DNA from: Gracilaria domingensis
Lineage: Eukaryota > Rhodophyta > Florideophyceae > Gracilariales > Gracilariaceae
Length of the DNA: 35,803 bases
Direction of reading: 5' to 3'
NCBI GenBank assembly: GCA_022539475.1
Contig: VCMS01000347.1
Span: 1-35,803 of the forward strand
Translations under genes and position numbers: made by a program
Part shown: piece after piece, positions 2,051 through 35,001 of the stretch
How the letters are laid out: each line of letters starts with the position of its first letter
Numbering within the stretch: position 1 is the first letter of the stretch
The notes under the pieces: generated by a model
Seen by the model: only the letters and a program-made list of their open reading frames with translations
Told to the model about the DNA's origin: nothing
Databases searched by the model: none

Positions 2051-3140
2051 CCCGCTGACCTCTGCCGTTATCGTTTCCCTCTCGCCGCTGATTCTCGCTG
2101 CTCTCCCTCACCGCCGTTCATCCGCTTCGCTGTTTTCCGTTTCGTTCCCTTCTCCGTTGCGTCGGGTGTGTTGACCGTATCGTTGTCGGTGTTGACTTTC
2201 TTCTTTCGGTCGTTCGTTCCTCCCTGAGGGCGTTTTGTTGGTGGTGGTTCGACGTTGACTTCTATCGTGATTGTGTTTGGGCACTCGTTGTTGCCCGTGT
2301 TGTCGATCGCTATCCGCTTCGTTTGGTCTCCCTCTGTTATTATTGTTGGGATCCCCACGTCGTCTTTGTGGGTTCTGATCCGAGAGGTTGAGGACCTTGT
2401 GTTGTTGAAGTCTGTGCACTTGTGTGTTGTGCTCAGCATTCGTTTCTGTTGAAGTCCGTGCACTGCGTGTGTGCTCGGCAGGTGTGGTGATCACTTGAGT
2501 TTCGGTGCGACGAGCGGTTGATCCGAGCAATCGGGGACGTTAGTCTGGCGGCTTGAACCAAAGCATTTGTTCCGTCTTGCGAGTTTCCCACCGGTCCTTA
2601 GGGGCAGATAACGGTGTCGGTCGAAAGACCTGGTATTCTTCGCGGAGGCATTTGTGGACGGGGTGCCGTGACGTACTGCACTGGACAGGAGGTGGTCCAC
2701 CTTTATTGTTGCTGACCTGACTTTGTGTTGGGTTCTTGATCTGTGGCGAAGGCAAACTGAAACGAGCTTTTGATCCGTACTGCTTCGGTGGTGCGGGGAG
2801 GCGACGTGTCGTAGGCTGACCTCCTTTTTAGGATCAGGCCGCTTGTGAACTTCATTGTTTGCTTGCTAGAAGCGTACCTCGGTTTTTCATAGTACCTGCA
2901 GTTTCAGGGTCGCGCAAGTTCTTGCAAGAGACCAGAGAGGGTTTTACTTGGTGAAGGCATATCTTCGGTCATTAACCATCCTCTGGAAGTCTCGTAGAGA
3001 GCGACGCACCTTCTCCTAGAACGCAGGAGGAGGTAGACTGCAGAAGTCGTTTCTTACCCGGAGAGTCTCCGGGGTCAGGGGTCCGACTCCCTAGGGTACC
3101 AGGAATCTTAGTTCCTTTTGCACCCGACTATTCATCTTTA

Positions 3141-7352: not shown

Positions 7353-8106
7353 AAACCAAAAGTGCTGGGGAGCATGGGCTGTTTTGGAGGGTGCCGTTGG
7401 AAAAGCGCATATGCGCCTCTGAGCAAACTCAACGTGAAATGGGCTTCTGATTGGCTACTGCAAATGGTCATATGCATTGTGGTTCGTACAAGTGTTGTGG
7501 CGCTAATGGGTTGTTTCAGGGTACACGTGTGTAGCTAATACACTGGGCATGCTGTACACGATGCACAGGGTACACAGTATGTATGTGGACATGTAGGACA
7601 GCTTCATGTGACTTTGGCACTATGGTGAAGAGTAGATGCGCTGTCAAGAGGTTTACACTGTGGTATTGTTGGTGACGTAGGACTTGGAGTGAGTGTGTGG
7701 TGACGTGTTAGTTGGTGAGCTTGTACGTAACTGTTATGGTGGCATGCACGGATTACAGTGTGTTGGCACTATGTGAATCTGTGCATGGTCATGGTTATGT
7801 GTAGGCACGTAACTTGATGTGCACGGTTGTGCACTGTTGTGCGTTGTTGTGCTTTGTTGTTGTAAGCTGTCATGATAGTGTGGCAGTGTTACCATGTTAT
7901 GTTAGAAGATGATTGGTAGTATTGATTGTCTCTAGCTAGTGGTTTAGGTATTGCTTGGAGTTGGAGTTGTGCAATGGTTGCGCAAAGTAGTTCTATATAA
8001 GCGATGACTGGAGCGCCTCCAAGTAAATTCCGAGCCAGAGCTGGCTAACTTCCCTTCATTCCCCTATCCTTTCTTCAACCTTCCCTTTCAGCTTCAACCT
8101 CTATCA
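7323..8106 (+). repeat. Family-A LTR shared by elements 1 and 2
   Basis: 784 bp, TGTTCGATG to CTATCA. A polypurine tract precedes it and a full primer binding site follows it (8107-8121, GGTTATGGGCCCAGC), so it is the 3' LTR of element 1 and the 5' LTR of element 2. TGTGCA-like hexamers lie at 7818, 7828, 7838 and 7848, and TATATAAG at 7994-8001. It differs from the 1256 LTR by scattered changes (for example accgtatgctg against acctgtgctg), so the two are not a freshly made pair. Confidence 0.92.
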
Positions 8107-9348
8107 GGTTATGGGCCCAGCCCCGCTGACCTCTGCCGTTATCGTTCCCTCTCGCCGCTGATTCTCGCTGCTCTCCCTCACCGCCGTTCATCCGCTTCGC
8201 TGTTTTCCCTTTCGTTCCCTTCTCCGTTGCGTCGGGTGTGTTGACCGTATCGTTGGTCGGTGTTGACTTTCTTCTTTCGGTCGTTCGTTCCTCCCTGAGG
8301 GCGTTCTGTTGGTGGTGGTTCGACGTTGACTTTCTATCGTGATTGTGTTTGGGCGCTCGTTGTTGCCCGTGTTGTCGATCGCTATCCGCTTCGTTTGGCT
8401 CCCTCTGTTATTATTGTTGGGATCCCCACGTTGTCTTTGTGGGTTCTGATCCGAGAGGTTGAGGACCTTGTGTTGTTGAAGTCTGTGCACTTGTGTGTTG
8501 TGCTCAGCATTCGTTTCTGTTGAAGTCCGTGCACTGCGTGTATGCTCGGCAGCTGTGGTGATCACTTGAGTTTCGGTGCGACGAGCGGTTGATCCGAGCA
8601 ATCGGGACGTTAGTCTGGCGGCTTGAACCAAAGCATTTGTTCCGTCTTGCGAGTTTCCCACCGGTCCTTAGGGCAGATAACGGTGTCGGTCGAAAGACCT
8701 GGTATTCTTCGCGGGGGCATTTGTGGACGGGGTGCCGTGACGTACTGCACTGGACAGGAGGTGGTCCACCTTTATTGTTGCTGACCTGACTTTGTGTTGG
8801 GTTCTTGATCTGTGGCGAAGGCAAACTGAAACGAGCTTTTGATCCGTACTGCTTCGGTGGTGCGGGGAGGCGACGTGTCGTAGGCTGACCTCCTTTTCAG
8901 GATCAGGCCGCTTGTGAACTTCATTGTTTGCTTGCTAGAAGCGTACCTCGGTTTGTCATAATACCTGCAGTTTCAGGGTCGCGCAAGTTCTTGCAAGAGA
9001 CCAGAGAGGGTTTTACTTGGTGAAGGATATCTTCGGTCATTAACCATCCTCTGGAAGTCTCGTAGAGAGCGACGCACCTTCTCCTAGAACGCAGGAGGAG
9101 GTAGACTGCAGAAGTCGTTTCTTACCCGGAGAGTCTCCGGGGGTCAGGGGTCCGACTCCCTAGGGTACCAGGAATCTTAGTTCCTTTTGCACCCGACTAT
9201 TCATCTTTATTGTTGTTGTTGTTTGTTGTTATTGTTGTTTGTTGTTGTTTGTTGTTGTTGTTTGCTGTTGTTGTTTACCGCTGTCGTTTGCTATTGCCGC
9301 CTATCTGCCACCGCATTATCTGGTTCGCTGCAGTTCCTCTCTTACATC
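8107..9348 (+). other. Primer binding site and leader of element 2
   Basis: Starts with the intact half-tRNA-Met primer site (8107-8121) and runs to the gag ATG at 9349, with the GTT-rich tract at about 9210-9274. It is nearly identical to the leaders of elements 1, 3 and 4. I see no sense gene in it. Confidence 0.8.
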
Positions 9349-14266: not shown

Positions 14267-15020
14267 AAACTAAAAGTGCTGGGGAGCATGGGCTGTTTTG
14301 AAGGGTGCCATTGGAAAAGCGCATATGCGCCTTGAGCAAACTCAACGTGAAACGGGCTTCTGATTGGCTACTGCAAATGGTCGTATGCATTGTGATTCGT
14401 ACAAGTGTTGTGGAGCTAATGGGTTGTTTCCGGGGTACACGTGTGTAGCTAATACACTGGGCATGCTGTACATGATGCACAGGGTACACACGTATGTACG
14501 TGGACATGTAGGACAGCTTGTGTGACTTTGGCACTATGGTGAAGAGTAGATGCGCTGTCAAGAGGTTTACACTGTGGTATTGTTGGTGACGTAGGACTTG
14601 GAGTGAGTGTGTGGTGACGTGTTAGTTGGTGAGCTTGTACGTAACTGTTATGGTGGCGTGTACGGATTACAGTGTGTTGGCACTATGTGAATCTGTGCAT
14701 GGTCATGGTTATGTGTAGGCACGTAACTTGATGTGCACGGTTGTGCACTGTTGTGCGTTGTTGTGCTTTGTTGTTGTAAGCTGTCATGATAGTGTGGCAG
14801 TGTTACCATGTTATGTTAGAAGATGATTGGTAGTATTGAGTGTCTCTAGCTAGTGGTTTAGGTATTGCTTGGAGTTGGAGTTGTGCGATGGTTGCGCAAA
14901 GTAGTTCTATATAAGCGGTGACTCGAGCGCCTCCAAGTAAATTCCGAGCCAGAGCTGGCGAACTTCCCTTCATTCCCCTATCCTTTCTTCAACCTTCCCT
15001 TTCAGCTTCAACCTCTATCA
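14237..15020 (+). repeat. Family-A LTR, 5' LTR of element 3
   Basis: 784 bp, TGTTGGATG to CTCTATCA. TGTGCA-like hexamers at 14732, 14742, 14752 and 14762; TATATAAG at 14908-14915. A complete primer site follows at 15021. Confidence 0.93.
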
Positions 15021-16265
15021 GGTTATGGGCCCAGCCCCGCTGACCTCTGCCGTTATCGTTCCCTCTCGCCGCTGATTCTCGCCGCTCTCCCTCACCGCCG
15101 TTCATCCGCTTCGCTGTTTTCCCTTTCGTTCCCTTCTCCGTTGCGTCGGGTGTGTTGACCGTATCGTTGGTCGGTGTTGACTTTCTTCTTTCGGTCGTTC
15201 GTTCCTCCCTGAGGGCGTTTTGTTGGTGGTGGTTCGACGTTGACTTTCTATCGTGATTGTGTTTGGGCGCTCGTTGTTGCCCGTGTTGTCGATCGCTATC
15301 CGCTTCGTTTGGTCTCCCTCTGTTATTATTGTTGGGATCCCCACGTCGTCTTTGTGGGTTCTGATCCGAGAGGTTGAGGACCTTGTGTTGTTGAAGTCTG
15401 TGCACTTGTGTGTTGTGCTCAGCATTCGTTTCTGTTGAAGTCCGTGCACTGCGTGTGTGCTCGGCAGGTGTGGTGATCACTTGAGTTTCGGTGCGACGAG
15501 CGGTTGATCCGAGCAATCGGGGACGTTAGTCTGGCGGCTTGAACCAAAGCATTTGTTCCGTCTTGCGAGTTTCCCACCGGTCCTTAGGGGCAGATAACGG
15601 TGTCGGTCGAAAGACCTGGTATTCTTCGCGGGGGCATTTGTGGACGGGGTGCCGTGACGTACTGCACTGGACAGGAGGTGGTCCACCTTTATTGTTGCTG
15701 ACCTGACTTTGTGTTGGGTTCTTGATCTGTGGCGAAGGCAAACTGAAACGAGCTTTTGATCCGTACTGCTTCGGTGGTGCGGGGAGGCGACGTGTCGTAG
15801 GCTGACCTCCTTTTTAGGATCAGGCCGCTTGTGAACTTCATTGTTTGCTTGCTAGAAGCGTACCTCGGTTTGTCATAGTACCTGCAGTTTCAGGGTCGCG
15901 CAAGTTCTTGCAAGAGACCAGAGAGGGTTTACTTGGTGAAGGCATATCTTCGGTCATTAACCATCCTCTGGAAGTCTCGTAGAGAGCGACGCACCTTCTC
16001 CTAGAACGCAGGAGGAGGTAGACTGCAGAAGTCGTTTCTTACCCGGAGAGTCTCCGGGGGTCAGGGGTCCGACTCCCTAGGGTACCAGGAATCTTAGTTC
16101 CTTTTGCACCCGACTATTCATCTTTATTGTTGTTGTTGTTTGTTGTTATTGTTGTTTGTTGTTGTTTGTTGTTGTTGTTTGCTGTTGTTGTTTACCGCTG
16201 TCGTTTGCTATTGCCGCCTGTCTGCCACCGCATTATCTGGTTCGCTGCAGTTCCTCTCTTACATC
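15021..16265 (+). other. Primer binding site and leader of element 3
   Basis: GGTTATGGGCCCAGC at 15021-15035 matches the initiator tRNA-Met anticodon arm. The leader runs to the gag ATG and has the same hairpins and GTT tract (16128-16193) as the other A leaders. A 175-codon antisense frame (15516 to 14989) is open but starts at a TTG and contains almost no Met, so I do not call it a gene. Confidence 0.8.
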
Positions 16266-17366
16266 ATGGACTCGTTTAGTGGGCTCAAGATCGAGAAGTT
16301 GGGTGAGGATAACTTCCATACTTGGAAGCAGAAGATTCAGTATGTACTTGCACTGAAAGACCTCAAGAACCATCTCACCACTTCTGCACCCACGGATGAA
16401 GAGGAACTGGTAAAGTGGCAAATCCGCGACGAAAGGGCTAGAGCTATCATTGGACTCACGCTTGCCGACGAGCACTTGGATCACATTCGAGACATCGAGA
16501 CTGCTGCTGACGCATGGAAGGCCATTTGCAATGTGTTTCAACGTAAGACTCTTCTTAACCGAATCAACGCCAGACGTGCCTTCTACTCTGTCAAAATGCG
16601 CGAGGACGAGAAGATGTTGCAATTCATCAATCGTGTTCGGCACTTGGCCTCCGACCTCAAGAGTATGGACGTCAACGTTGAAGAAGAGGACATTGCTATG
16701 GCTGCTCTATGTGGACTTCCGGATCGTTTTGAGCACCTCATTGTTGCAATTGACACCACGATCGGAGATCGCCAACTCACCATGGAGTTTGTGAAGAGCC
16801 GTCTATTGCAAGAAGAGCAACGTATGAGTGATCGTGCCAAGGAGGAGTCCGGTGTTGATGCTGCACTCTTGGGACGCCAGTTTCGTAGGAAGTCATTGAA
16901 GTCGGTTGTGTGTTACTATTGTGGCATAAAGGGTCATATCCAGAAGAACTGTTTCAAAAAGCAACGTGATGGGGCTAACAAGGATCAGATCGATGCTGCT
17001 CACCCAAGTGTACATACCGCGCTCAACGATGAGCAAGGTACGGGCGGCAGCGATTCTGACTTTGTATGCCTCATTGCGAATGGTGCCGACAAGGCCACTA
17101 ACAGTGACTGGATTGTTGACTCTGGAGCTACTGCGCACATGACTTATGATGACTCAATGTTCCAAACGTACGAGACAAAGGTGTCGTCGGGTGTGAGTAT
17201 CGGCAATGATTCCAAGTTGCAGTCTGTTGGTCACGGAAGTGTGGAGCTCGATCTGACAGTTGAAGGGTCCAAGCGTAAGTGCAAGCTAAAGCAGGTGGTA
17301 CACGTGCCCAACTTACGGTACCATTGTTGTCTGTGTCACAGATTTGTGATCTGGGCTGCACGGTAG
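16266..17366 (+). CDS. Gag and protease part of the gag-pol polyprotein (element 3), best-preserved Gag in the window
   Basis: Open from ATG 16266 (tcATGGACTCG). The reading frame extends upstream to 16104, but only from a TTG through the GTT tract. Gag: residues about 1-200 are a helical UBN2/copia-type capsid region (WKQKIQYVLALKDL, ADAWKAICNVFQRKTL, RVRHLASDLKSMDVNVEEED). A CCHC zinc knuckle CYYCGIKGHIQKNC for RNA binding lies at about residues 217-230. The aspartic protease active site is DWIVDSGATAHM near residue 285. The frame fails near 17323, where one base of taccacttgttg is missing, and it stops at 17366. Gag packages the RNA, and protease cleaves the polyprotein in the particle. 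The encoded part is complete for Gag and nearly complete for protease. Confidence 0.88.
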   Translation: MDSFSGLKIEKLGEDNFHTWKQKIQYVLALKDLKNHLTTSAPTDEEELVKWQIRDERARAIIGLTLADEHLDHIRDIETAADAWKAICNVFQRKTLLNRINARRAFYSVKMREDEKMLQFINRVRHLASDLKSMDVNVEEEDIAMAALCGLPDRFEHLIVAIDTTIGDRQLTMEFVKSRLLQEEQRMSDRAKEESGVDAALLGRQFRRKSLKSVVCYYCGIKGHIQKNCFKKQRDGANKDQIDAAHPSVHTALNDEQGTGGSDSDFVCLIANGADKATNSDWIVDSGATAHMTYDDSMFQTYETKVSSGVSIGNDSKLQSVGHGSVELDLTVEGSKRKCKLKQVVHVPNLRYHCCLCHRFVIWAAR

Positions 17367-17870
17367 TGTTTGACAAAAAAAGGTATGTGTGTACAAGGGG
17401 TCAAAAGTGGTTGCCGTTGGGCGCCGCGTCAAAGACCTGTACTACCTTTGCACTGCTGCAGATCAGTTCACGGACACGGACAGTGCGCTTGTGTCAGACT
17501 TGTCTCTTTGGCATGCTCGAATGGCTCATGTGAATGTGGAAGGCATCAAGCAGATGGCTCGAAAGGTGTTGTGTCAGGTCTGAATGTGGATGTGGCTCAG
17601 AAGCTGGATGTGTGGGCTCTTGTGTAGTGGGCAAAGCAACCCGTGCTCCGACTCCCAAGCAAGGGGGGAACGAGCTGAACACGTACTGGACCTGGTACAC
17701 TCTGACATTTGGGTCCAGTGAACGTGAAGTCCTTGGGAGGCTCGCACTACTTTGTCACATTCATCGATGACCACAGCCGCTACTGCTTCTTGTACATGCT
17801 CAAGACGAAGGATGAGGTGTCCGGATGTTCATCAAGTGGCTCAGGTTTGTGGAGAACCAGATGGGCAGGA
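17323..17870 (+). pseudogene. gag-pol of element 3 continued: end of protease, integrase N-terminus
   Basis: Integrase HHCC finger (LWHARMAHVNVEGIKQMAR) and the start of the catalytic core (FIDDHSRYCFLYMLKTKDE) are recognisable across three frames. Single-base losses occur near 17323, 17378, 17565, 17665, 17705 and 17820. The sequence is interrupted after gggCAGGA by the B element and resumes at 22376 with the same five bases. Confidence 0.88.
17866..17870 (+). repeat. Target site duplication CAGGA, left copy
   Basis: CAGGA precedes the B element and is repeated at 22376-22380. An uninterrupted A pol has this sequence once (gggcaggaaagtgtt, as in element 1). Five base pairs is the usual copia integrase duplication. 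Confidence 0.96.
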
Positions 17871-18859
17871 TGTTGGAAGTCATGCTGTCACTGACATCAA
17901 GCAGTTGAGATGTGTGGAGTCTAGAATGGTACCTTGATACGTGAAACCGAGATTGATGTTGTTCTGTTTGGTATACTACGTTGCTGTGTGGTATACTCAG
18001 TATGGGTTGAACGTTTATGGCTACACTGGAACGCTATCGTTCAGCTGGGATGACCACAAGGTACAACGATGACAGGTTGTACAGTGGTCATGAAGTACAG
18101 GGTTGAAGGCTATGTATGTGCACACAAGGTACAGGTGGCAGCAGTGTCAGTGCTGTGAAGTTTACACCGTGTTTGAGTTGTGCTACATGCAAATGTGTGT
18201 GTATGGATGCATGGAACATGTTGCAGCTAAGTGACTGACGTCATGTGGTTTACAGGTACTTGTTGATGATGTGGGACTTTGTATCTGGCACGTACACATT
18301 ACGGTGTGGTGTACAGATTACAGCGTGCCAGCAACACGTGAAGTGTGATGTGATGTTCCGTAAGCATGGCTGGTCATGATGGTGAGGTGTTGCATTGTGT
18401 GTATGCATGGTCGCGTTGCTATGGTGAGCTGTCATATTGTTGACTGCATTGATGTGTGGTGCTTGGTGTCCTGTCGAAATGTGTCGGTACACTGTCAGGG
18501 ACGTGTATGGCTACTACATTGGTGTGCATTGTTGTGCATTGTTGTGCACTGCTGTGCAGTAGTGTACGGAATTGTTGTGCACTGCTGTACACTGTTGTGC
18601 GTTGTTGTGCACTGCTGTTGTAAGCAGTTCGGCACTGTTACCATGTTATGTCTGTAGATGATTGGTAGTATTGAGTGTCTCTGGTTAGTGAGTTGCATGT
18701 TGCTCAGAGTTGGAGTCGCATGATGAGTAGCGAAGAAGTGGTATATAAGTTGTGACTCAAGCACCTCCAAGTAAATCTGAGCCAGAGCTGGCGAACTTCC
18801 CTTGCATCCCCCCATCCTTCCTCATGTCAACTTTCCGATCCCAGCTATAACCTCTAACA
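17871..18859 (+). repeat. Family-B 5' LTR
   Basis: 989 bp, TGTTGGAAG to CTCTAACA (TGTT...AACA ends). It carries a perfect CRE-like palindrome TGACGTCA (18236-18243), nine TGTGCA-like hexamers (18523-18611), and TATATAAG (18742-18749). The last ~120 bp resemble the A LTR (cctccaagtaaat, gagccagagctggcgaactt). It appears to differ from the 3' copy only by two single-base indels. Confidence 0.95.
18523..18611 (+). promoter_or_regulatory. 10-bp-phased TGTGCA hexamer array in B LTR
   Basis: TGTGCA or one-base variants (TGTACG, TGTACA, TGTGCG) start at 18523, 18533, 18543, 18553, 18563, 18576, 18586, 18596 and 18606. Spacing is 10 bp except for one step of 13. This is one DNA helical turn, as expected for sites stacked on one face. 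The array ends about 130 bp upstream of the TATA box. A duplicate lies in the 3' LTR, offset by 3516 bp. Confidence 0.6.
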
Positions 18860-19960
18860 GGTTATGGGCCCAGCCCCGCTGACCTCTGCCGTTTGTCGTT
18901 CGTCATGAGGTTTCCTTTTCGGCCGCTCTCCCTCACCGCCGTCCGTGTTGTTGAACGCCGTTGTTGATGTTTTCGATGTTTTTTCTCCGTCGTGTTTCTT
19001 GTCATTGACCGGTTTGGTGGTGTTGTATTTCCCTTTTGGTTTGCGTTCCTCCCTGAGGGCGTTGTGGTGGTAGTGGCTCGACGCTGTTCTACTTTCGTGA
19101 TTCTGTTTGGTTTCTAGTTCATTTTCGTTTTCGTCGATCGCTATCCGCTCTGTTGGTCTCTCGCCTCTGTTTTCGTTGTTGTGATCCCCGTGTGGTGTTT
19201 GCGGGTTCTGATCCGAGGGGTTGAGTACCGTTGTCGATGAAGTCTGTGCACTTGTGTGTTGTGCTCAGCATTCGTTTTTTCGTTGAAGTCCGGGCACTGC
19301 CTGTGTGCTTGGCATTTGTGGTGATCACTTGGGTTTCGGTGCGACGAGCGGTTGATCCGAGCAATCGGGGACGTTAGTCTGGCGGCTTGAACCAATTCGG
19401 ACGCGCTGTCGAGCGGGCTCCCACCGGTCCTTCGGGGCAGATAACGGTGTCGGTCGGAAGACCTGGTAGTACCGCGAGTGCTGAAGTTGACGGGGTGCCG
19501 TGACGTACTGCATCGAACAGGGGTGGTTCACCTTTGTTGTGTGTGACCTGACTGTGTGTTGGGTTCTTGATCTGTTGGGAAGACAAACTGAAACGAGCTT
19601 TTGATCCGTACTGCTGCGGTGGTGCGGGGAGGCGACGTGTCGTAGGCTGACCTCCTTTTCAGGATCAGGCCGCTTGTGAACTTTATTGTTTGCTTGCTGG
19701 AAGCGTACCTCGGTTTGTCATAGTACCTGCAGTATCAGGGTCGCGCAAGTTCTTGCAAGAGACCAGAGAGGGTTTAACTTGGTGAAGGCATATCTTTGGT
19801 CACTAACCATCCTCTGGACGTCTCGTAGAGAGCGACGCGCCTTCTCCTGGAACGCAGGACGAGGTAGACAGAAGAAAGTCGTTTCCTACCCGGAGGGTCT
19901 CCGGGGGTCAGGGGTCCGACTCCCTAGGGTACCAGGAATCTTAGTTCCTTATGCACCCGA
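18860..19960 (+). other. Primer binding site and A-like leader of B element
   Basis: GGTTATGGGCCCAGC at 18860-18874. The first ~33 nt and the last ~350 nt (from about ggcgacgtgtcgtaggctg) are nearly identical to family A, and the middle is diverged. The hairpin cccggag-ggt-ctccggg is kept with a changed loop. Shared sequence runs to gcacccga (19953-19960). I see no sense gene. Confidence 0.82.
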
Positions 19961-19991
19961 TCGCTTGCAGTTTGTTGTTGTTATTCTCGCT

Positions 19992-20958
19992 ACAGTTCAG
20001 GAGGTGGAGTGTTTCCTGCCTGAGACTGTGTGTGTGAGATTCGTTTATGACACTTCCTGGGTGTTTGTTGTTGAACATGTCTGAGCTCTTCTTTGTATCA
20101 ACTTTGGAAAGTTGCGATGTTACTTGTCCGTTGTTATCGTGACTTCCTTACGCAGGCTCAGAAGGTTGTCGTTATGTATGCCCGGGATGTGTGCTGTGCT
20201 CTTCGCTTTACTTCTGTTGTACCGGAAGGTTGCTATTTGGTTGCATGTCCGGTGTGTATGGAAGAGCTGTTTGACTCAGGAGGTTGAGTGTTTCATGCCT
20301 GAGTGTATTATTGATTACTTGTGATGTGTGTTTTGCTCTCCATGTTGTTCTCATGTTACCAGAAGGTTGTTACATGTATGCATGTCCTGGTTATGGAAGA
20401 GCTGTTCGATTCAGGAGGTTGAGTGTTTCATGCCTGAGTGTTTGTTTCATTGCTTGTGATGTTTGTTTTGCTCTTTGTTTCAGTTTGTTGTCACTGGAAG
20501 TTTGCTATGTGTTTGCATGTCCGGTGTGAATGAAAGAGCTAATTGACTCAGGAGGTTGATGTTTCATGCCTGAGTGTGTAGGACATCACTTTGTAGGACG
20601 GGGCCTGGAAGGTTGTCATTTTGAAGTCCAGGATGCCTGTGTTGCAATTCTCTTTGTGTGTTATTCGCGGAAGGTTGCTGTGATTTTGTATGTCCGCTGT
20701 TTGAAGAGATTTGTTGAGCTGGAAGGTTGCTCTCTTTTGCATGTCCAGCTGTTACGAAGGTGATGCTGAACTGGAAGGTTGCTACTTGTTGCATGTCCGG
20801 TGTTCAGAAAATTGGTCTTGAATCAGAAGGTTGCGTGTGTTTGCATGTCTGGTTGAAGTACTGTGATTAATGGTGCTCCGAGAGGTTGTTATGTGTTACA
20901 TGCTCGGAGCAACATTCGTTTTCGGTGTCTAGAATGTGGTCACTTGTGGACATCTAGA
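19992..20958 (+). repeat. Array of about 16 hairpins with conserved loops and covarying arms
   Basis: Each unit has a variable arm, the core gaaggttgc, about 8 nt, ttgcatgtc, then the complementary arm. Clear units: acagttcagg/cctgagactgt (19992-20029), accgga/tccggt (20221-20253), actcagg/cctgagt (20274-20304), accag/ctggt (20358-20391), attcagg/cctgagt (20409-20439), cactgga/tccggtg (20492-20526), actcagg/cctgagt (20546-20575), cctgga/tccagg (20604-20632), gcgga/tccgc (20667-20697), agctgga/tccagct (20717-20750), ctgaactgga/tccggtgttcag (20766-20807), aatcaga/tctggtt (20821-20854), gctccgag/ctcggagc (20875-20910), tctaga/tctaga (20928-20958). Units near 20103-20140 and 20157-20195 are decayed. 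The inner trinucleotides also pair: TGC/GCA, TGT/ACA, TGA/TCA, GGA/TCC. Arm sequences differ from unit to unit while pairing is kept, so a folded RNA (or cruciform DNA) is the likely constraint. No function is known to me. Confidence 0.8.
20221..20640 (+). repeat. Three tandem ~136-bp hairpin-pair repeats
   Basis: A pair made of one TGC/GCA-type hairpin plus one ctcagg/cctgag hairpin repeats three times. The second hairpins start at 20274, 20409 and 20546 (steps of 135 and 137 bp). The B element at 26189 has only one such pair (28322-28410). This shows expansion or loss by slippage or unequal exchange. Confidence 0.8.
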
Positions 20959-21012
20959 TCCCTTTTGTGAAGGACTCTGAGGTGCATTTCCGTTCCGAGA
21001 GAAGTTCAAAGC

Positions 21013-21065
21013 CAGTGAGAGAGGGAGGGTGTCAGAGTAACATCCTCCGACTTAGGCTCTCACTG
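21013..21065 (+). other. Relic purine tract and LTR-start-like junction 1 in B 3' region, with hairpin
   Basis: cagtgagag (21013-21021), then gagggaggg and TG at 21030, then ctctcactg (21057-21065). It has the same layout as the true polypurine tract/LTR junction. The stem pair is changed on both arms relative to cagtgacag/ctgtcactg, so pairing is preserved. It is followed by TGTCAGAGTAACATCC, which could be the start of a third LTR family. Confidence 0.6.
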
Positions 21066-21138
21066 TCTGTTGTTGATATCTGGTTGAACCGGAAGCTGTT
21101 GTCTTCGTTGCCATACGAAGGATGAGTAAGAAGTTCAG

Positions 21139-21245
21139 AGTGTGTGACAAAAGGAGGGTGTTTCCAGAACATCCGAATCGTACAGAACAGAACTATATCT
21201 TGGTATACTGGTAGAACGGTACAGCCGTGGACTTGGACACACACT
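21139..21245 (+). other. Relic purine tract junction 2 in B 3' region
   Basis: agtgtgtgacaaaaggaggg then TGTTTCCAGAACATCC (TG at 21159). The upstream agtgtgtg (21139-21146) has a perfect complement cacacact at 21238-21245, but the loop is about 90 nt, longer than at the other junctions, so the pairing is less certain. Confidence 0.45.
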
Positions 21246-21367
21246 AACTGCACTTGATGTTTGGTTGTCACCGTTGGCCATCGTAAGGTTATTTGCAGTA
21301 ACATTGGTTTCTTGACTGCCCGACTTGTTACTTAGCATGTACTTGACCAGAGCGCTGGTTGCTTGAA

Positions 21368-21411
21368 GTCAGTAACAGAGGGAGGGTGTTGGAAGTCATG
21401 CTGTCACTGAC
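21368..21411 (+). other. Functional-position polypurine tract and hairpin of B element
   Basis: gtcagtaacag (21368-21378) pairs with ctgtcactgac (21401-21411) except for one A-C mismatch. The loop holds the tract agagggaggg and the LTR start at 21387. Confidence 0.82.
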
Positions 21412-22375
21412 ATCAAGCAGTTGAGATGTGTGGAGTCTAGAATGGTACCTTGATACGTGAAACCGAGATTGATGTTGTTCTGTTTGGTATACTACGTTGC
21501 TGTGTGGTATACTCAGTATGGGTTGAACGTTTATGGCTACACTGGAACGCTATCGTTCAGCTGGGATGACCACAAGGTACAACGATGACAGGTTGTACAG
21601 TGGTCATGAAGTACAGGGTTGAAGGCTATGTATGTGCACACAAGGTACAGGTGGCAGCAGTGTCAGTGCTGTGAAGTTTACACCGTGTTTGAGTTGTGCT
21701 ACATGCAAATGTGTGTGTATGGATGCATGGAACATGTTGCAGCTAAGTGACTGACGTCATGTGGTTTACAGGTACTTGTTGATGATGTGGGACTTTGTAT
21801 CTGGCACGTACACATTACGGTGTGGTGTACAGATTACAGCGTGCCAGCAACACGTGAAGTGTGATGTGATGTTCCGTAAGCATGGCTGGTCATGATGGTG
21901 AGGTGTTGCATTGTGTGTATGCATGGTCGCGTTGCTATGGTGAGCTGTCATATTGTTGACTGCATTGATGTGTGGTGCTTGGTGTCCTGTCGAAATGTGT
22001 CGGTACACTGTCAGGGACGTGTATGGCTACTACATTGGTGTGCATTGTTGTGCATTGTTGTGCACTGCTGTGCAGTAGTGTACGGAATTGTTGTGCACTG
22101 CTGTACACTGTTGTGCGTTGTTGTGCACTGCTGTTGTAAGCAGTTCGGCACTGTTACCATGTTATGTCTGTAGATGATTGGTAGTATTGAGTGTCTCTGG
22201 TTAGTGAGTTGCATGTTGCTCAGAGTTGGAGTCGCATGATAGAGTAGCGAAGAAGTGGTATATAAGTTGTGACTCAAGCACCTCCAAGTAAATCTGAGCC
22301 AGAGCTGGCGAACTTCCCTTGCATCCCCCATCCTTCCTCATGTCAACTTTCCGATCCCAGCTATAACCTCTAACA
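21387..22375 (+). repeat. Family-B 3' LTR
   Basis: 989 bp, TGTTGGAAG to CTCTAACA. TGACGTCA at 21752-21759, the phased hexamer array at 22039-22127, TATATAAG at 22259-22266. Against the 5' LTR I see one inserted base (gatagagtag against gatgagtag) and one fewer C near 22326. The near identity indicates a recent insertion. Confidence 0.95.
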
Positions 22376-22380
22376 CAGGA
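22376..22380 (+). repeat. Target site duplication CAGGA, right copy
   Basis: Repeats 17866-17870, after which pol continues with aagtgttaaccatc. Confidence 0.96.
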
Positions 22381-26110: not shown

Positions 26111-26188
26111 TGTTGGAAGTCATGCTGTCACTGACATCAAGCAGCTGAGATGGGTGAAGTCTAGAATGGTACCTTGCTATGTGAAAGC
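26111..26188 (+). repeat. Family-B LTR start, 78 bp, interrupted
   Basis: TGTTGGAAGTCATGCTGTCA onward matches the first 78 bp of the B LTR, starting exactly after TATAA of the previous fragment (26106-26110, probable target site). It is cut at 26188 by the recombinant LTR, with AAAGC as the probable target bases. Confidence 0.88.
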
Positions 26189-26968
26189 TGTTGGATGTTG
26201 ACGCTGTGCTGTCACTGAAAACCAAAAGTGCTGGAGAGCATGGGCTGTTTTGGAGGGTGCCGTTGGAAAAGCGCATATGCGCCTCTGCGAAAACTCAACG
26301 TGAAACGGGCTTCTGATTGGCTACTGCAAATGGTCATATGCATTGTGGTTGGTACAAGTGTTGTGGCGCTAATGGGTTGTTTTCGGGGTACACGTGTGTA
26401 GCTAGTACACTGGGGATACTGTACATGATGCACAGGGTACACACGTATGTACGTGGACATGTAGGACAGCTTGATGTAACTTGGGCACTATGGTGAAGAG
26501 TTGATGCGGTGTCAAGAGGATTACAGTGTGGTGTTGTTGGTGACGTAGGACTTGGAGTGAGTTTGCGGTGAAGTGTTGTTGGTGAGCTTGTACGTAACTT
26601 TTATGGTGTGGTGTACGGATTACAGTGTGTTGGCACTATGTGAATCTGTGCATGGTCATGGTTATGTGTAGGCACGTAACTTGTTGTGCACTGTTGTGCA
26701 CTGTTGTGCTTTGTTGTTGTAAGCTGGCATGATAGTGTGGGAGTGTTACGATGTTATGTTAGAAGATGATTGGTAGTATTGAGTGTCTCTAGCTAGTGGT
26801 GTAGGTATTGCTTGAGTTGGAGTTGTGCGATGGTTGCGCAAAGTAGTTCTATATAAGCGGTGACTGGAGCACCTCCAAGTAAATTCCGAGCCAGAGCTGG
26901 CGAACTTTCCTTGCATCTCCCCATCCTTTCTCATGTCAACTTTCCGATCCCAGCTATAACCTCCATCA
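26189..26968 (+). repeat. Recombinant LTR: A-type U3, B-type U5
   Basis: 780 bp. From TGTTGGATG through TATATAAG (26850-26857) to gagccagagctggcgaact it is family A. From there it reads ttgcatctccccatcctttctcatgtcaac and ccgatcccagctataacctcc, as in family B. The switch lies in the segment both families share just downstream of the TATA box, near the expected R region. A B-type internal region follows. Confidence 0.85.
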
Positions 26969-28068
26969 GGTTATGGGCCCAGCCCCGCTGACCTCTGCCG
27001 TTTGTCGTTCCTCATGAGGTTTCCCTTTCCGCCGCTCTTCCTCACCGCCGACCGTGTTGTTGAACGCCGTTTTTGATGTTTTTCGATGTTTGTTTGCCGT
27101 CGTGTTTGTTGTCGTTGACCGGTTTGGTGGTGTTCTATTTCCCTTTTGGTTTGCGTTCCTCCCTGAGGGCGTTGTGGTGGTAGTGGTTCGACGTTGTTCT
27201 ACTTTCGTTCTTCTCTTTGGTTTCTCGTTCATTTTCGTTTTCGTCGATCGATATCCGCTGTTGTTTGTTTCTCGCCTCTGTTTTCGTTGATGTGATCTCC
27301 GTGTCGTGTTTGCGGGTTCTGATCCGAGAGGTTGAGTACCGTTGTCGTTGAAGTCTGTGCACTTGTGTGTTGTGCTCAGCATTCGTTTTTTCGTTGAAGT
27401 CCGGGCACTGCCTGTGTGCTCGGCATTTGTGCTGATCACTTGGGTTTCGGTGCGACGAGCGGTTGATCCGAGCAATCGGGGACGTTAGTCTGGCGGCTTG
27501 AACCAATTCGGACGCGCTGTCGAGCGGCTCCCACCGGTCCTTGGGGCAGATAACGGTGTCGGTCGGAAGACCTGGTAGTACCGCGAGTGCTGAAGTTGAC
27601 GGGGTGCCGTGACGTACTGCATCGAACAGGGGTGGTTCACCTTTGTTGTGTGTGACCTGACTGTGTGTTGGGTTCTTGATCTGTTGGGAAGACAAACTGA
27701 AACGAGCTTTTGATCCGTACTGCTGCGGTGGTGCGGGGAGGCGACGTGTCGTAGGCTGACCTCCTTTTCAGGATCAGGCCGCTTGTGAACTTGATTGTTT
27801 GCTTGCTAGAAGCGTACCTCGGTTTGTCATAGTACCTGCAGTATCAGGGTCGCGCAAGTTCTTGCAAGAGACCAGAGAGGGTTTAACTTGGTGAAGGCAT
27901 ATCTTTGGTCACTAACCATCCTCTGGACGTCTCGTAGAGAGCGACGCGCCTTCTCCTGGAACGCAGGAGGAGGTAGACAGAAAAAGTCGTTTCCTACCCG
28001 GAGGGTCTCCGGGGGTCAGGGGTCCGACTCCCTAGGGTACCAGGAATCTTAGTTCCTTATGCACCCGA
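26969..28068 (+). other. Primer binding site and leader of second B element
   Basis: GGTTATGGGCCCAGC at 26969-26983, then a leader closely matching 18860-19960, ending gcacccga. It has no sense gene. The 186- and 169-codon antisense frames are not kept in the other B copy. Confidence 0.82.
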
Positions 28069-28099
28069 TCGCTTGCAGTTTGTTGTTGTTATGCTCGCT

Positions 28100-28793
28100 A
28101 CAGTTCAGGAGGTGGAGTGTTTCCTGCCTGAGACTGTGTGTGTGAGATTCGTTTATGACACTTCTGGGTGTTTGTTGTTGAACATGTCTGAGCTCTTCTT
28201 TGTATCAACTTTGGAAGTTGCGATGTTACTTGTCCGTTGTTATCGTGACTTCCTTACGCAGGCTCAGAAGGTTGTCGTTATGTATGCCCGGGATGTGTGC
28301 TGTGCTCTTCGCTTTACTTATATTGTACCGGAAGGTTGCTATTTGTTTGCATGTCCGGTGTGTATGGAAGAGCTGTTTGACTCAGGAGGTTGAGTGTTTC
28401 ATGCCTGAGTGTGTAGGACATCATTTTGTATGGACGGGGCCTCGAAGGTTGTCATTTGCAAGTCCAGGATGCCTGTGTTGCAATTCTCTTTGTGTGTTAT
28501 TCGGGGAAGGTTGCTGTGCTTTTGCATGTCCGCTGTTTGAAGAGATTTGTTGAGCTGGAAGGTTGCTCTGTTTTGCATGTCCAGCTGTTATGAAAGTGAT
28601 ATTGAACCGGAAGGTTGCTACTTGTTGCATGTCGGGTGTTCAGAAAATAGGTCTGAACCATAATGTTGCGTGTGTTTGCATGTCTGGTTGAAGTACTGTG
28701 ATTAATGGTGCTCCGAGAGGTTGTTATGTGTTACATGCTAGGAGCAACATTTGTTTTCGGTGTCTAGAATGTGGTCACTTGTAGACGTCTAGA
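28100..28793 (+). repeat. Hairpin array of second B element (shorter version)
   Basis: Same units as 19992-20958 without the two extra 136-bp pairs. Clear arms: acagttcagg (28100-28109) with cctgagactgt, accgga with tccggt, actcagg/cctgagt (28380-28410), agctgga/tccagct (28553-28586), gctccgag/ctaggagc (28710-28745, one mismatch), tctaga/tctaga (28763-28793). Some arms carry one mismatch, so this copy is slightly older or less accurate. Confidence 0.78.
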
Positions 28794-28928
28794 TCCTTTT
28801 GTGAAGGACTCTGAGGTGCATTTGGTTCGAGAGAAGTTCAAAGCAGTGAGAGAGGGAGGGTGTCAGAGTAACATCCTCAGACTTAGGCTTTCACTGTCTG
28901 TTGTTGATATCTGTTTGAACGGAAGCTG
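28794..28928 (+). other. 3' region of second B element, interrupted
   Basis: Contains relic junction 1 (cagtgagagagggagggtg, then ctttcactg). The single change from ctctcactg gives a G-U pair, so RNA pairing is kept. It ends at ggaagctg, where the inverted A element begins. The sequence resumes at 35786 with gctgttgctttcgttgcc. Confidence 0.8.
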
Positions 28929-29708
28929 TGATAGAGGTTAAGCTGAAAGGGAAGGTTGAAGAAAGGATGGGGGAATGAAGGGAAGTTCGCCAGCTCTGGC
29001 TCGGAATTTACTTGGAGGCGCTCCAGTCACCGCTTATATAGAACTACTTTGCGCAACCATTGCACAACTCCAACTCCAAGCAATACCTAAACCACTAGCT
29101 AGAGACACTCAATACTACCAATCATCTTCTAACATAACATGGTAACACTGCCACACTATCATGACAGCTTACAACAACAAAGCACAACAACGCACAACAG
29201 TGCACAACCGTGCACATCAGGTTACGTGCCTACACATAACCATGACCATGCACAGATTCACATAGTGCCAACACACTGTAATCCGTACACGCCACCATAA
29301 CAGTTACGTACAAGCTCACCAACTAACACGTCACCACAAACTCACTCCAAGTCTACGTCACCAACAATACCACAGTGTAAACCTCTTGACAGCGCATCTA
29401 CTCTTCACCATAGTGCCAAGTCACATGAAGCTGTCCTACATGTCCACGTACATACGTGTGTACCCTGTGCATCATGTACAGTATGCCCAGTGTACTAGCT
29501 ACACACGTGTACCCCGGAAACAACCCATTAGCGCCACAACACTTGTACAACACAATGCATATGACCATTTGCAGTAGCCAATCAGAAGCCCGTTTCACGT
29601 TGAGTTTGCCAGAGGCGCATATGCGCTTTTCCAACGGCACCCTCCAAAACAGCCCATGCTCCCCAGCACTTTTGGTTTTCAGTGACAGCACAGGGTCAAC
29701 ATCCAACA
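28929..29708 (-). repeat. 3' LTR of element 4
   Basis: 780 bp, minus-strand TGTTGGATG to CTATCA. TATA complement at 29033-29040. Very similar to the 35002 LTR, with a few one-base indels. Confidence 0.94.
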
Positions 29709-33755: not shown

Positions 33756-35001
33756 GATGTAAGAGAGGAACTGCAGCGAACCAGATAATGCGGTGGCAGA
33801 CAGGCGGCAATAGCAAACGACAGCGGTAAACAACAACAGCAAACAACAACAACAAACAACAACAAACAACAATAACAACAAACAACAACAACAATAAAGA
33901 TGAATAGTCGGGTGCAAAAGGAACTAAGATTCCTGGTACCCTAGGGAGTCGGACCCCTGACCCCCGGAGACTCTCCGGGTAAGAAACGACTTCTGCAGTC
34001 TACCTCCTCCTGCGTTCTAGGAGAAGGTGCGTCGCTCTCTACGAGACTTCCAGAGGATGGTTAATGACCGAAGATATGCCTTCACCAAGTAAAACCCTCT
34101 CTGGTCTCTTGCAAGAACTTGCGCGACCCTGAAACTGCAGGTACTATGACAAACCGAGGTACGCTTCTAGCAAGCAAACAATGAAGTTCACAAGCGGCCT
34201 GATCCTAAAAAGGAGGTCAGCCTACGACACGTCGCCTCCCCGCACCACCGAAGCAGTACGGATCAAAAGCTCGTTTCAGTTTGCCTTCGCCACAGATCAA
34301 GAACCCAACACAAAGTCAGGTCAGCAACAATAAAGGTGGACCACCTCCTGTCCAGTGCAGTACGTCACGGCACCCCGTCCACAAATGCCCCCGCGAAGAA
34401 TACCAGGTCTTTCGACCGACACCGTTATCTGCCCCTAAGGACCGGTGGGAAACTCGCAAGACGGAACAAATGCTTTGGTTCAAGCCGCCAGACTAACGTC
34501 CCCGATTGCTCGGATCAACCGCTCGTCGCACCGAAACTCAAGTGATCACCACACCTGCCGAGCACACACGCAGTGCACGGACTTCAACAGAAACGAATGC
34601 TGAGCACAACACACAAGTGCACAGACTTCAACAACACAAGGTCCTCAACCTCTCGGATCAGAACCCACAAAGACGACGTGGGGATCCCAACAATAATAAC
34701 AGAGGGAGACCAAACGAAGCGGATAGCGATCGACAACACGGGCAACAACGAGCGCCCAAACACAATCACGATAGAAAGTCAACGTCGAACCACCACCAAC
34801 AAAACGCCCTCAGGGAGGAACGAACGACCGAAAGAAGAAAGTCAACACCGACCAACGATACGGTCAACACACCCGACGCAACGGAGAAGGGAACGAAAGG
34901 GAAAACAGCGAAGCGGATGAACGGCGGTGAGGGAGAGCGGCGAGAATCAGCGGCGAGAGGGAACGATAACGGCAGAGGTCAGCGGGGCTGGGCCCATAAC
35001 C
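33756..35001 (-). other. Leader and primer binding site of element 4
   Basis: Inverted A leader with the CAA/GTT tract at 33830-33895 and the complement of the primer site at 34987-35001 (gctgggcccataacc). The conserved hairpins are present. The 175-codon plus-strand frame at 34506-35033 starts at TTG and has one Met near its end, so it is not called. Confidence 0.8.

Follow-up and report, generated by a model that had tools for sequence, protein, structure and literature searches.

What takes the place of gag-pol in an LTR element that carries no genes, and does it bear the marks of selection? Element B, at 17871-22375 of the 35,803-nt stretch of Gracilaria domingensis DNA analyzed here (contig VCMS01000347.1; hereafter, the window), raises this question. 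A first-pass annotation made from the letters had proposed that its interior carries an array of about 16 hairpins with covarying arms, selected for pairing and perhaps serving as a Gag-binding or packaging signal in a non-autonomous element tied to a second family, A.

The layout of B is that of a non-autonomous LTR retrotransposon, with an LTR pair of 989 bp each, TG...CA ends, a target-site duplication, a primer binding site (PBS), and a polypurine tract (PPT), and with no gag-pol coding capacity in its interior. Alignment of 17864-18859 with 21380-22375 gave 99.6% identity over 997 aligned positions. B is nested in a family-A copy, the halves of which stop at 17870 and restart at 22376. 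It measures 4.5 kb in total, of which the interior accounts for 2527 bp; the longest ATG-initiated open reading frame (ORF) overlapping 18860-21380 comprises 90 aa and is antisense, and no stop-to-stop frame of at least 150 aa was found within that interval. The PBS is presumably complementary to initiator tRNA-Met. The framing features are as follows.

17866..17870, no strand: left copy of the target-site duplication CAGGA (5 bp)
17871..18859, plus strand: 5' LTR of B (TG...CA, 989 bp)
18860..18877, plus strand: PBS of B, immediately 3' of the 5' LTR
18860..19985, plus strand: 5'UTR of B, family-A-like
20976..21386, plus strand: 3' segment of B without a long ORF, containing two additional PPT-like stretches (21020, 21149)
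21377..21386, plus strand: polypurine tract AGAGGGAGGG, the same as the PPT in one family-A copy (7313)
21387..22375, plus strand: 3' LTR of B, from the LTR alignment
22376..22380, no strand: right copy of the target-site duplication CAGGA (5 bp)

Several other features of this sequence were recorded. PPT-like stretches followed by TGT, the first bases of the LTR, lie upstream of the real PPT at 21020-21032, 21149-21161, and 28851-28863; they may have been left behind by earlier ends or may act as a second primer site. Repeated TTGTTGTGCA-like 10-mers occur within the LTRs of A and B (1745-1791, 7814-7860, 14728-14774, 18517-18611, and 22033-22127). In addition, the plus strand of B is G/T-rich across LTR, leader, and array (17871-21386), with 29% G and 38% T in the array; a stretch of A pol, taken for comparison, has 29% G and 23% T.

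The array does replace gag-pol in position, with the A-like 5'UTR on one side of it and the PPT on the other. Spanning 19995-20958, it comprises 14 hairpins detectable by a covariance model and two weaker ones (u3 and u17), in agreement with the proposed number, and the core, arm pairs, and inner pairs listed in the first-pass annotation (TGC/GCA, TGT/ACA, TGA/TCA, and GGA/TCC) are all present. Each unit consists of a variable outer arm of 7 bp, an asymmetric 4x2 internal loop (AGGU/UG, exactly so in 12 of the 14), a 3-bp inner stem, and an apical loop. The units, with the evidence for each in brackets, are listed below.

19995..20025, plus strand: unit u1, arms GTTCAGG/CCTGAGA, inner GGA/TCC (alignment, covariance model, arm test)
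20102..20133, plus strand: weak unit u3, degenerate, missed by the model in the window (placed by position)
20156..20187, plus strand: unit u4, imperfect arms (covariance model)
20220..20577, plus strand: 135-bp tandem module, 2.6 copies, each with one long-loop and one short-loop hairpin
20220..20254, plus strand: unit u5 (geometry scan, covariance model)
20274..20304, plus strand: unit u6 (geometry scan, covariance model)
20357..20391, plus strand: unit u7, bulged arm, not forming as registered (covariance model)
20409..20439, plus strand: unit u8 (geometry scan, covariance model)
20492..20526, plus strand: unit u9, loop AGUU (geometry scan, covariance model)
20546..20575, plus strand: unit u10 (geometry scan, covariance model)
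20603..20633, plus strand: unit u11, variant core in which AG replaces UG (covariance model)
20665..20699, plus strand: unit u12 (geometry scan, covariance model)
20717..20750, plus strand: unit u13 (geometry scan, covariance model)
20769..20802, plus strand: unit u14 (geometry scan, covariance model)
20821..20854, plus strand: unit u15 (geometry scan, covariance model)
20876..20909, plus strand: unit u16, arms extending to 20874-20911 (9 bp) (geometry scan, covariance model)
20928..20958, plus strand: weak unit u17, TCTAGA arms and different loops (by eye only)
26186..28929, plus strand: second array-bearing element, an A/B mosaic, 10 units at 28103-28744

The geometry scan specified, in order, outer arm, 4-nt loop, 3-bp inner stem, apical loop, inner stem, 2-nt loop, and outer arm. 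It returned 67 matches on both strands of the window, eleven of which are B units at 19996-20911 whose loops are all AGGU (AGUU once) and UG. The covariance model, built from the 14 aligned units at 19995-20909, found 24 units in the window at E<=1, namely these 14 (by construction) and the 10 of the second element; none lay in the family-A copies of the window at that threshold. The degenerate u3 has a better-formed counterpart in another copy (L041, 2583-2614; E=1.3e-4), and the u4 pair 20159/20184 is C-G in most copies and T-A in 3. We also observed a hairpin common to A and B at the end of the 5'UTR (19927-19958, 3094-3125, 9163-9194, 16080-16111, 28035-28066, and 33910-33941), which on the strand opposite to the element has the geometry of an array unit (4x2 loop, inner GGA/UCC, and UG as 3' loop) and carries AUAA or AAAA where array units have AGGU.

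Whether the arms pair was assessed by arm exchange, a control that leaves composition and core unchanged, alters partnership alone and, like the shuffles used below, takes no account of kinship among units. In the 11 core-selected units of the window copy, a unit's own arm pairs at 6.09 of 7 positions and the arms of other units at 4.77; 4 of 5000 permutations were as good, and none of 5000 when Watson-Crick pairs only were counted. Across the 14 units there are 79 Watson-Crick pairs out of 98, compared with 49.7 after exchange (0/20,000 permutations). The proposal that opposite arms are complementary, and differ from unit to unit, also holds for the 10 non-duplicated units, in which 57 of 70 pairs are Watson-Crick vs 34.9 when exchanged (0/20,000 permutations; with G-U pairs included, 1/20,000 was as good). 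Among the seven most different units, 44 of 49 positions pair, and the single permutation of 5040 that reaches this value is the true partnership, the best of all.

A broader sample came from a unit search over 51 of 54 sources (the window and L001-L053, without L001, L015, and L023), which yielded 675 matches, some of which may count a unit twice, as the loci partly overlap. Among 97 distinct units drawn from 10 of these 51 sources, arms were complementary more often than in shuffled units (90.2% of cells paired vs 74.2%), and 200 cells displayed a two-sided change vs 82 in shuffles. The covariation score was 0.539 vs 0.254 when shuffled, and 0.04-0.13 with partners slid by 1-3 columns. Of the five measures taken on these units, two did not rise above shuffles: pair types (23 vs 22.4; 232/500), the counting of which was dropped as evidence for this reason, and pairs with a two-sided change (9 vs 8.0; 101/500). 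Since the structure was derived from these 97 units and their alignment fitted to it, the arm-exchange tests are the cleaner evidence. Judged between units, the selection for arm pairing proposed in the first-pass annotation is well supported.

As the arms vary, the loops stay nearly constant. AGGU is exact in 77 of the 97 distinct units, UG in 90, and both in 70; column entropy (in bits) ranges over 0.08-0.61 for the 4-nt loop and 0.20-0.28 for the 2-nt loop, vs 0.56-1.90 for the outer arms. A constant loop with varying arms is the usual picture of a loop-recognized RNA site, in which the stems present the loop. Within the 4-nt loop, GG is conserved less well (87-90 of 97 units) than the flanking A and U (95-96), and a protein that simply reads GG is therefore not favored.

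Partition-function folding of the sense array predicted that 12 of the 14 units form their outer stem, with a mean probability of 0.66-1.00; u4 and u7, as registered, do not form in the predicted ensemble. GG is predicted to be unpaired at >=0.75 in 11 of the 12 forming units (the exception being u1, at 0.30), so that 11 of the 14 both form and leave GG unpaired at that level. The whole sense array is more stable than its shuffles (z -2.99; 0/20 shuffles). Stability was not retained as proof for the sense strand, since in 150-nt windows the mean z of the sense array (-0.71) is similar to that of the rest of B (-0.54).

Is B still a moving element? The core pattern has 246 matches in the 77.9-Mb genome (reversed control, 0), a figure for matches rather than for B elements. 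Among 35 loci compared, nine rows have two full-length flanking LTRs, two of which represent one copy (L031/L096). In the resulting 8 distinct copies, the LTR pair differs by 0-1 substitutions in 6, by 4 in one, and by 5 in one; without L031/L096, 5 of 7 copies have 0-1. Matching 5-bp duplications flank the window copy, L049, L088, and L095; those of L091 agree where unmasked, and no matching pair was found for L090, L092, and L098. Given that L088 and L090 have a common left flank, they may be segmental copies of one insertion. Judged from its young LTR pairs and target duplications, B is recently mobile.

Two candidates were set aside in this analysis. L031/L096 was taken up as a possible case of movement with a truncated leader and then dropped, since positions 18860-19254, which contain the PBS, are missing, no duplication matches, and another B interior ends before the left LTR. 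L031/L096 and L044 are tandem arrangements of LTRs and B pieces. Occurrence of the unit well beyond this genome was likewise rejected: the pattern GGAAGGTTGCN{6,10}GCATGTCC matched once in each of 32 stretches of a prokaryote collection (~37 expected by chance, by hand estimate) and once in viral contigs, and these matches were taken as chance.

The partner suggested for B is family A, a Ty1/copia element with copia-type gag, a zinc knuckle, and a copia-type reverse transcriptase. Gag, zinc knuckle, and a Pol_BBD domain lie in a single ORF at 16266-17363, which matches PF14223 (Retrotran_gag_2), PF00098 (CCHC), and PF22936, and the reverse transcriptase at 23517-24806 matches PF07727. The start of A gag has 135 genomic matches (control, 0), and a homologue search with A Gag returned 62 proteins, mostly unnamed, the best at 59% identity. 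The 15 bases directly after the LTR are common to B (18860) and A (8107, 15021, and 34987 on the minus strand), the first A copy (2037) being one base short there, and the 5'UTRs of B and A are 82% alike over a 1444-position match that includes the LTR end.

In addition, two A/B mosaics were found. Single sites excepted, the window mosaic is A-like to 26887 and B-like from 26913; its TATA starts at 26850, so that the switch falls 37-63 nt after the TATA start. A second mosaic (L044, 378-1118) switches between 1038 and 1064, that is, 35-61 nt after a TATA at 1003. Since these breakpoints lie where the R region, the site of first-strand transfer, is expected, they fit the presence of A and B RNAs in one particle, and the mosaics suggest strand transfer between co-packaged RNAs. 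Instead of two events, they may represent a single recombinant lineage. In each of them, among the 14 loci listed, the A-like LTR is preceded by a piece of B-like LTR, which makes their history not a simple one. Collectively, the common PBS, PPT, and 5'UTR, the young LTR pairs, and the mosaics support, at the level of sequence, the view that B is non-autonomous and mobilized by family A, as the first-pass annotation had held.

We therefore give a probability of roughly 0.45 to the following main reading: B, a Ty1/copia derivative that lacks coding capacity and has moved recently, is mobilized by A, and its array is a multivalent Gag platform that aids packaging. A single RNA hairpin design, present about 16 times, takes the place of gag-pol; the constant loop would be the recognized feature, and the arms would need only to pair. 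On the genomic RNA of B, the array would act as a multivalent protein-binding platform. The bound protein might be the zinc-knuckle Gag of A, and the array might help B RNA into A particles, adding to the signal of the shared 5'UTR; these last two steps are the least certain. The Gag of A is the best candidate, given its zinc knuckle and the recognition of exposed guanosines by retroviral Gags. As no unit was found in A in the window, the array would be an additional device of the parasite atop the shared leader signal. Counting against this main reading are that absence from A, the recent movement of a copy with about half of the units (L049, below), the unremarkable 150-nt stability of the sense array, the slight difference in variability between units and spacers among copies, the equal numbers of GU-making and AC-making changes, and the lower constancy of GG. 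A bolder form, that genes were replaced by a tandemly growing hairpin device that recruits the partner's Gag and wins the parasite RNA its place in the particle, is put forward tentatively. The first-pass interpretation thus stands in part: selected pairing, non-autonomy, and mobilization by A are supported, while a Gag-binding or packaging role, drawn from structure models and analogy, is putative.

A host protein is the main alternative to the Gag of A. The hairpins could be selected as RNA, but for binding such a protein, or for export, stability, ribosome avoidance, or compaction, which we regard as rather unlikely. The structural evidence is the same for this explanation as for a Gag platform, and A, necessarily packaged by the same Gag, has no units in the window; on the other hand, none of the Rfam families matches the region 19900-21400 at E<=5, nor any part of the window at gathering scores.

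It is improbable that mutation and not selection produced the hairpins and kept them paired, with palindromes in the DNA corrected by template switching and modules exchanged unequally. The 135-bp module number does differ among element copies, with fewer or more elsewhere, the arms are short, and the folding z-scores are stronger on the minus strand. Conservation among copies is also weak. Comparisons among copies drew on 51 sequences, the 53 projected ones minus two exact duplicates (L053 had no projection), and gave a variability of 0.0503 per site in units vs 0.0625 in spacers (202/5000 permutations), with 26 of 5000 permutations in the 5' part, 1124 in the modules, and 638 in the 3' part. 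The most conserved part is the 5'UTR (0.0225 per site; array classes, 0.0228-0.0698; 3' segment, 0.057). Moreover, the covariation across many copies that the first-pass annotation had called for is seen between units and not in orthologous units of young copies, in which a Watson-Crick pair was restored in just 3 of the 7 cases where both sides of a standard pair had changed. As young copies mostly carry post-insertion changes, the evidence for selection rests on the older divergence between units. What argues against palindrome correction is that it should pair up the loops too, yet the 4x2 loop is kept and its sides are not complementary: none of the 97 distinct units has a 2-nt loop that could pair with two neighboring positions of the 4-nt loop, which is in effect one conserved fact rather than 97 independent ones. 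An excess of G-U over A-C in the window arms (8 and 3, or 7 and 0 without the badly registered u4 and u7, vs 1.30:1.05 in exchanged arms) points the same way weakly, the cases being non-independent. Among copies, GU-making and AC-making changes number 25 and 25, counts that favor neither strand; a GU/AC asymmetry was not accepted as proof of constraint at the RNA level.

It is still less probable that the array is a relic, selected in an ancestor and today carried passively as a spacer. The little constraint on units among young copies would fit such a relic, and so would L049, which has 1 LTR substitution and a target duplication, yet holds 6 strict units, about half of the usual complement; as this copy moved recently, movement does not need all units. 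However, 10-13 strict units are kept in 8 of the 9 copies counted (the window copy and seven others), and the u16 core, found at 51 genomic places (control, 0), is unchanged at 42, though the copies are young. Least probable of all is that the array functions through its minus strand, as antisense RNA or as cDNA of that strand, with A/C-rich linkers between stable hairpins. Although the folding z-scores of the minus strand are stronger (mean -1.90 vs -0.71 in 150-nt windows; -7.39 with 20 shuffles vs -2.99 for the whole array), mean predicted stem probabilities are similar on the two strands (plus, 0.75; minus, 0.74), the richness of the plus strand in G and T probably accounts for the difference in z, and the G-U excess is weak evidence for the plus strand.

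How does B compare with known systems? No paper on the retrotransposons of this alga was found, and titles and abstract openings in the open-licence literature revealed no counterpart, i.e., a hairpin array in a non-autonomous LTR element. LARDs, such as Sukkula of barley, are similar to B in their non-coding core, absence of gag-pol, and presumed reliance on an autonomous partner; a constant-loop, covarying-arm hairpin array is not described for LARDs in the portions of the literature available to us. Like them, B has a non-coding interior with structured RNA, the structure, as modeled, being that of the array. LARD LTRs are several kb long, whereas those of B measure 989 bp; B may therefore work in a LARD-like manner without being classed as a LARD. 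LARDs and TRIMs are described in PMC7215508 as coding-free LTR elements with structured RNA, and TRIMs (Cassandra) resemble B in both respects. TRIMs have short LTRs and almost no interior, in contrast to the 989-bp LTRs and 2527-bp interior of B.

Similar in its presumed way of life is BARE2, a Gag-less Copia element of barley; according to PMC3735527, BARE1 particles package its RNA. BARE2 retains coding sequence beyond gag, whereas B has none and carries the array in addition. In ssRNA viruses such as MS2 and STNV, PMC3662417 describes dispersed packaging-signal stem-loops that, like the units of B, are many, have a common recognition feature in variable primary sequence, and are proposed to act jointly; the array of B is tandem and lies in a retroelement, and its binding protein is putative. 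In HIV-1 and HIV-2, unpaired guanosines drive packaging by Gag (PMC12031250), and their 5'UTR offers several exposed-G sites, as B is predicted to do; there, nine sites lie in the leader, and in B, ~16 units of one design lie downstream of it.

Precedents thus exist for LTR elements that lack genes and have structured RNA, for a Copia element parasitizing Copia particles, and for packaging signals made of multiple stem-loops. To our knowledge, the means by which LTR elements without coding capacity compete for the particles of their partners are little understood. The non-coding core of B can be broken down into repeats of a single RNA design whose constant loop is defined, and for this reason binding and packaging can be addressed unit by unit. 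If the array is indeed a Gag platform, it would be a natural multivalent packaging device outside viruses.
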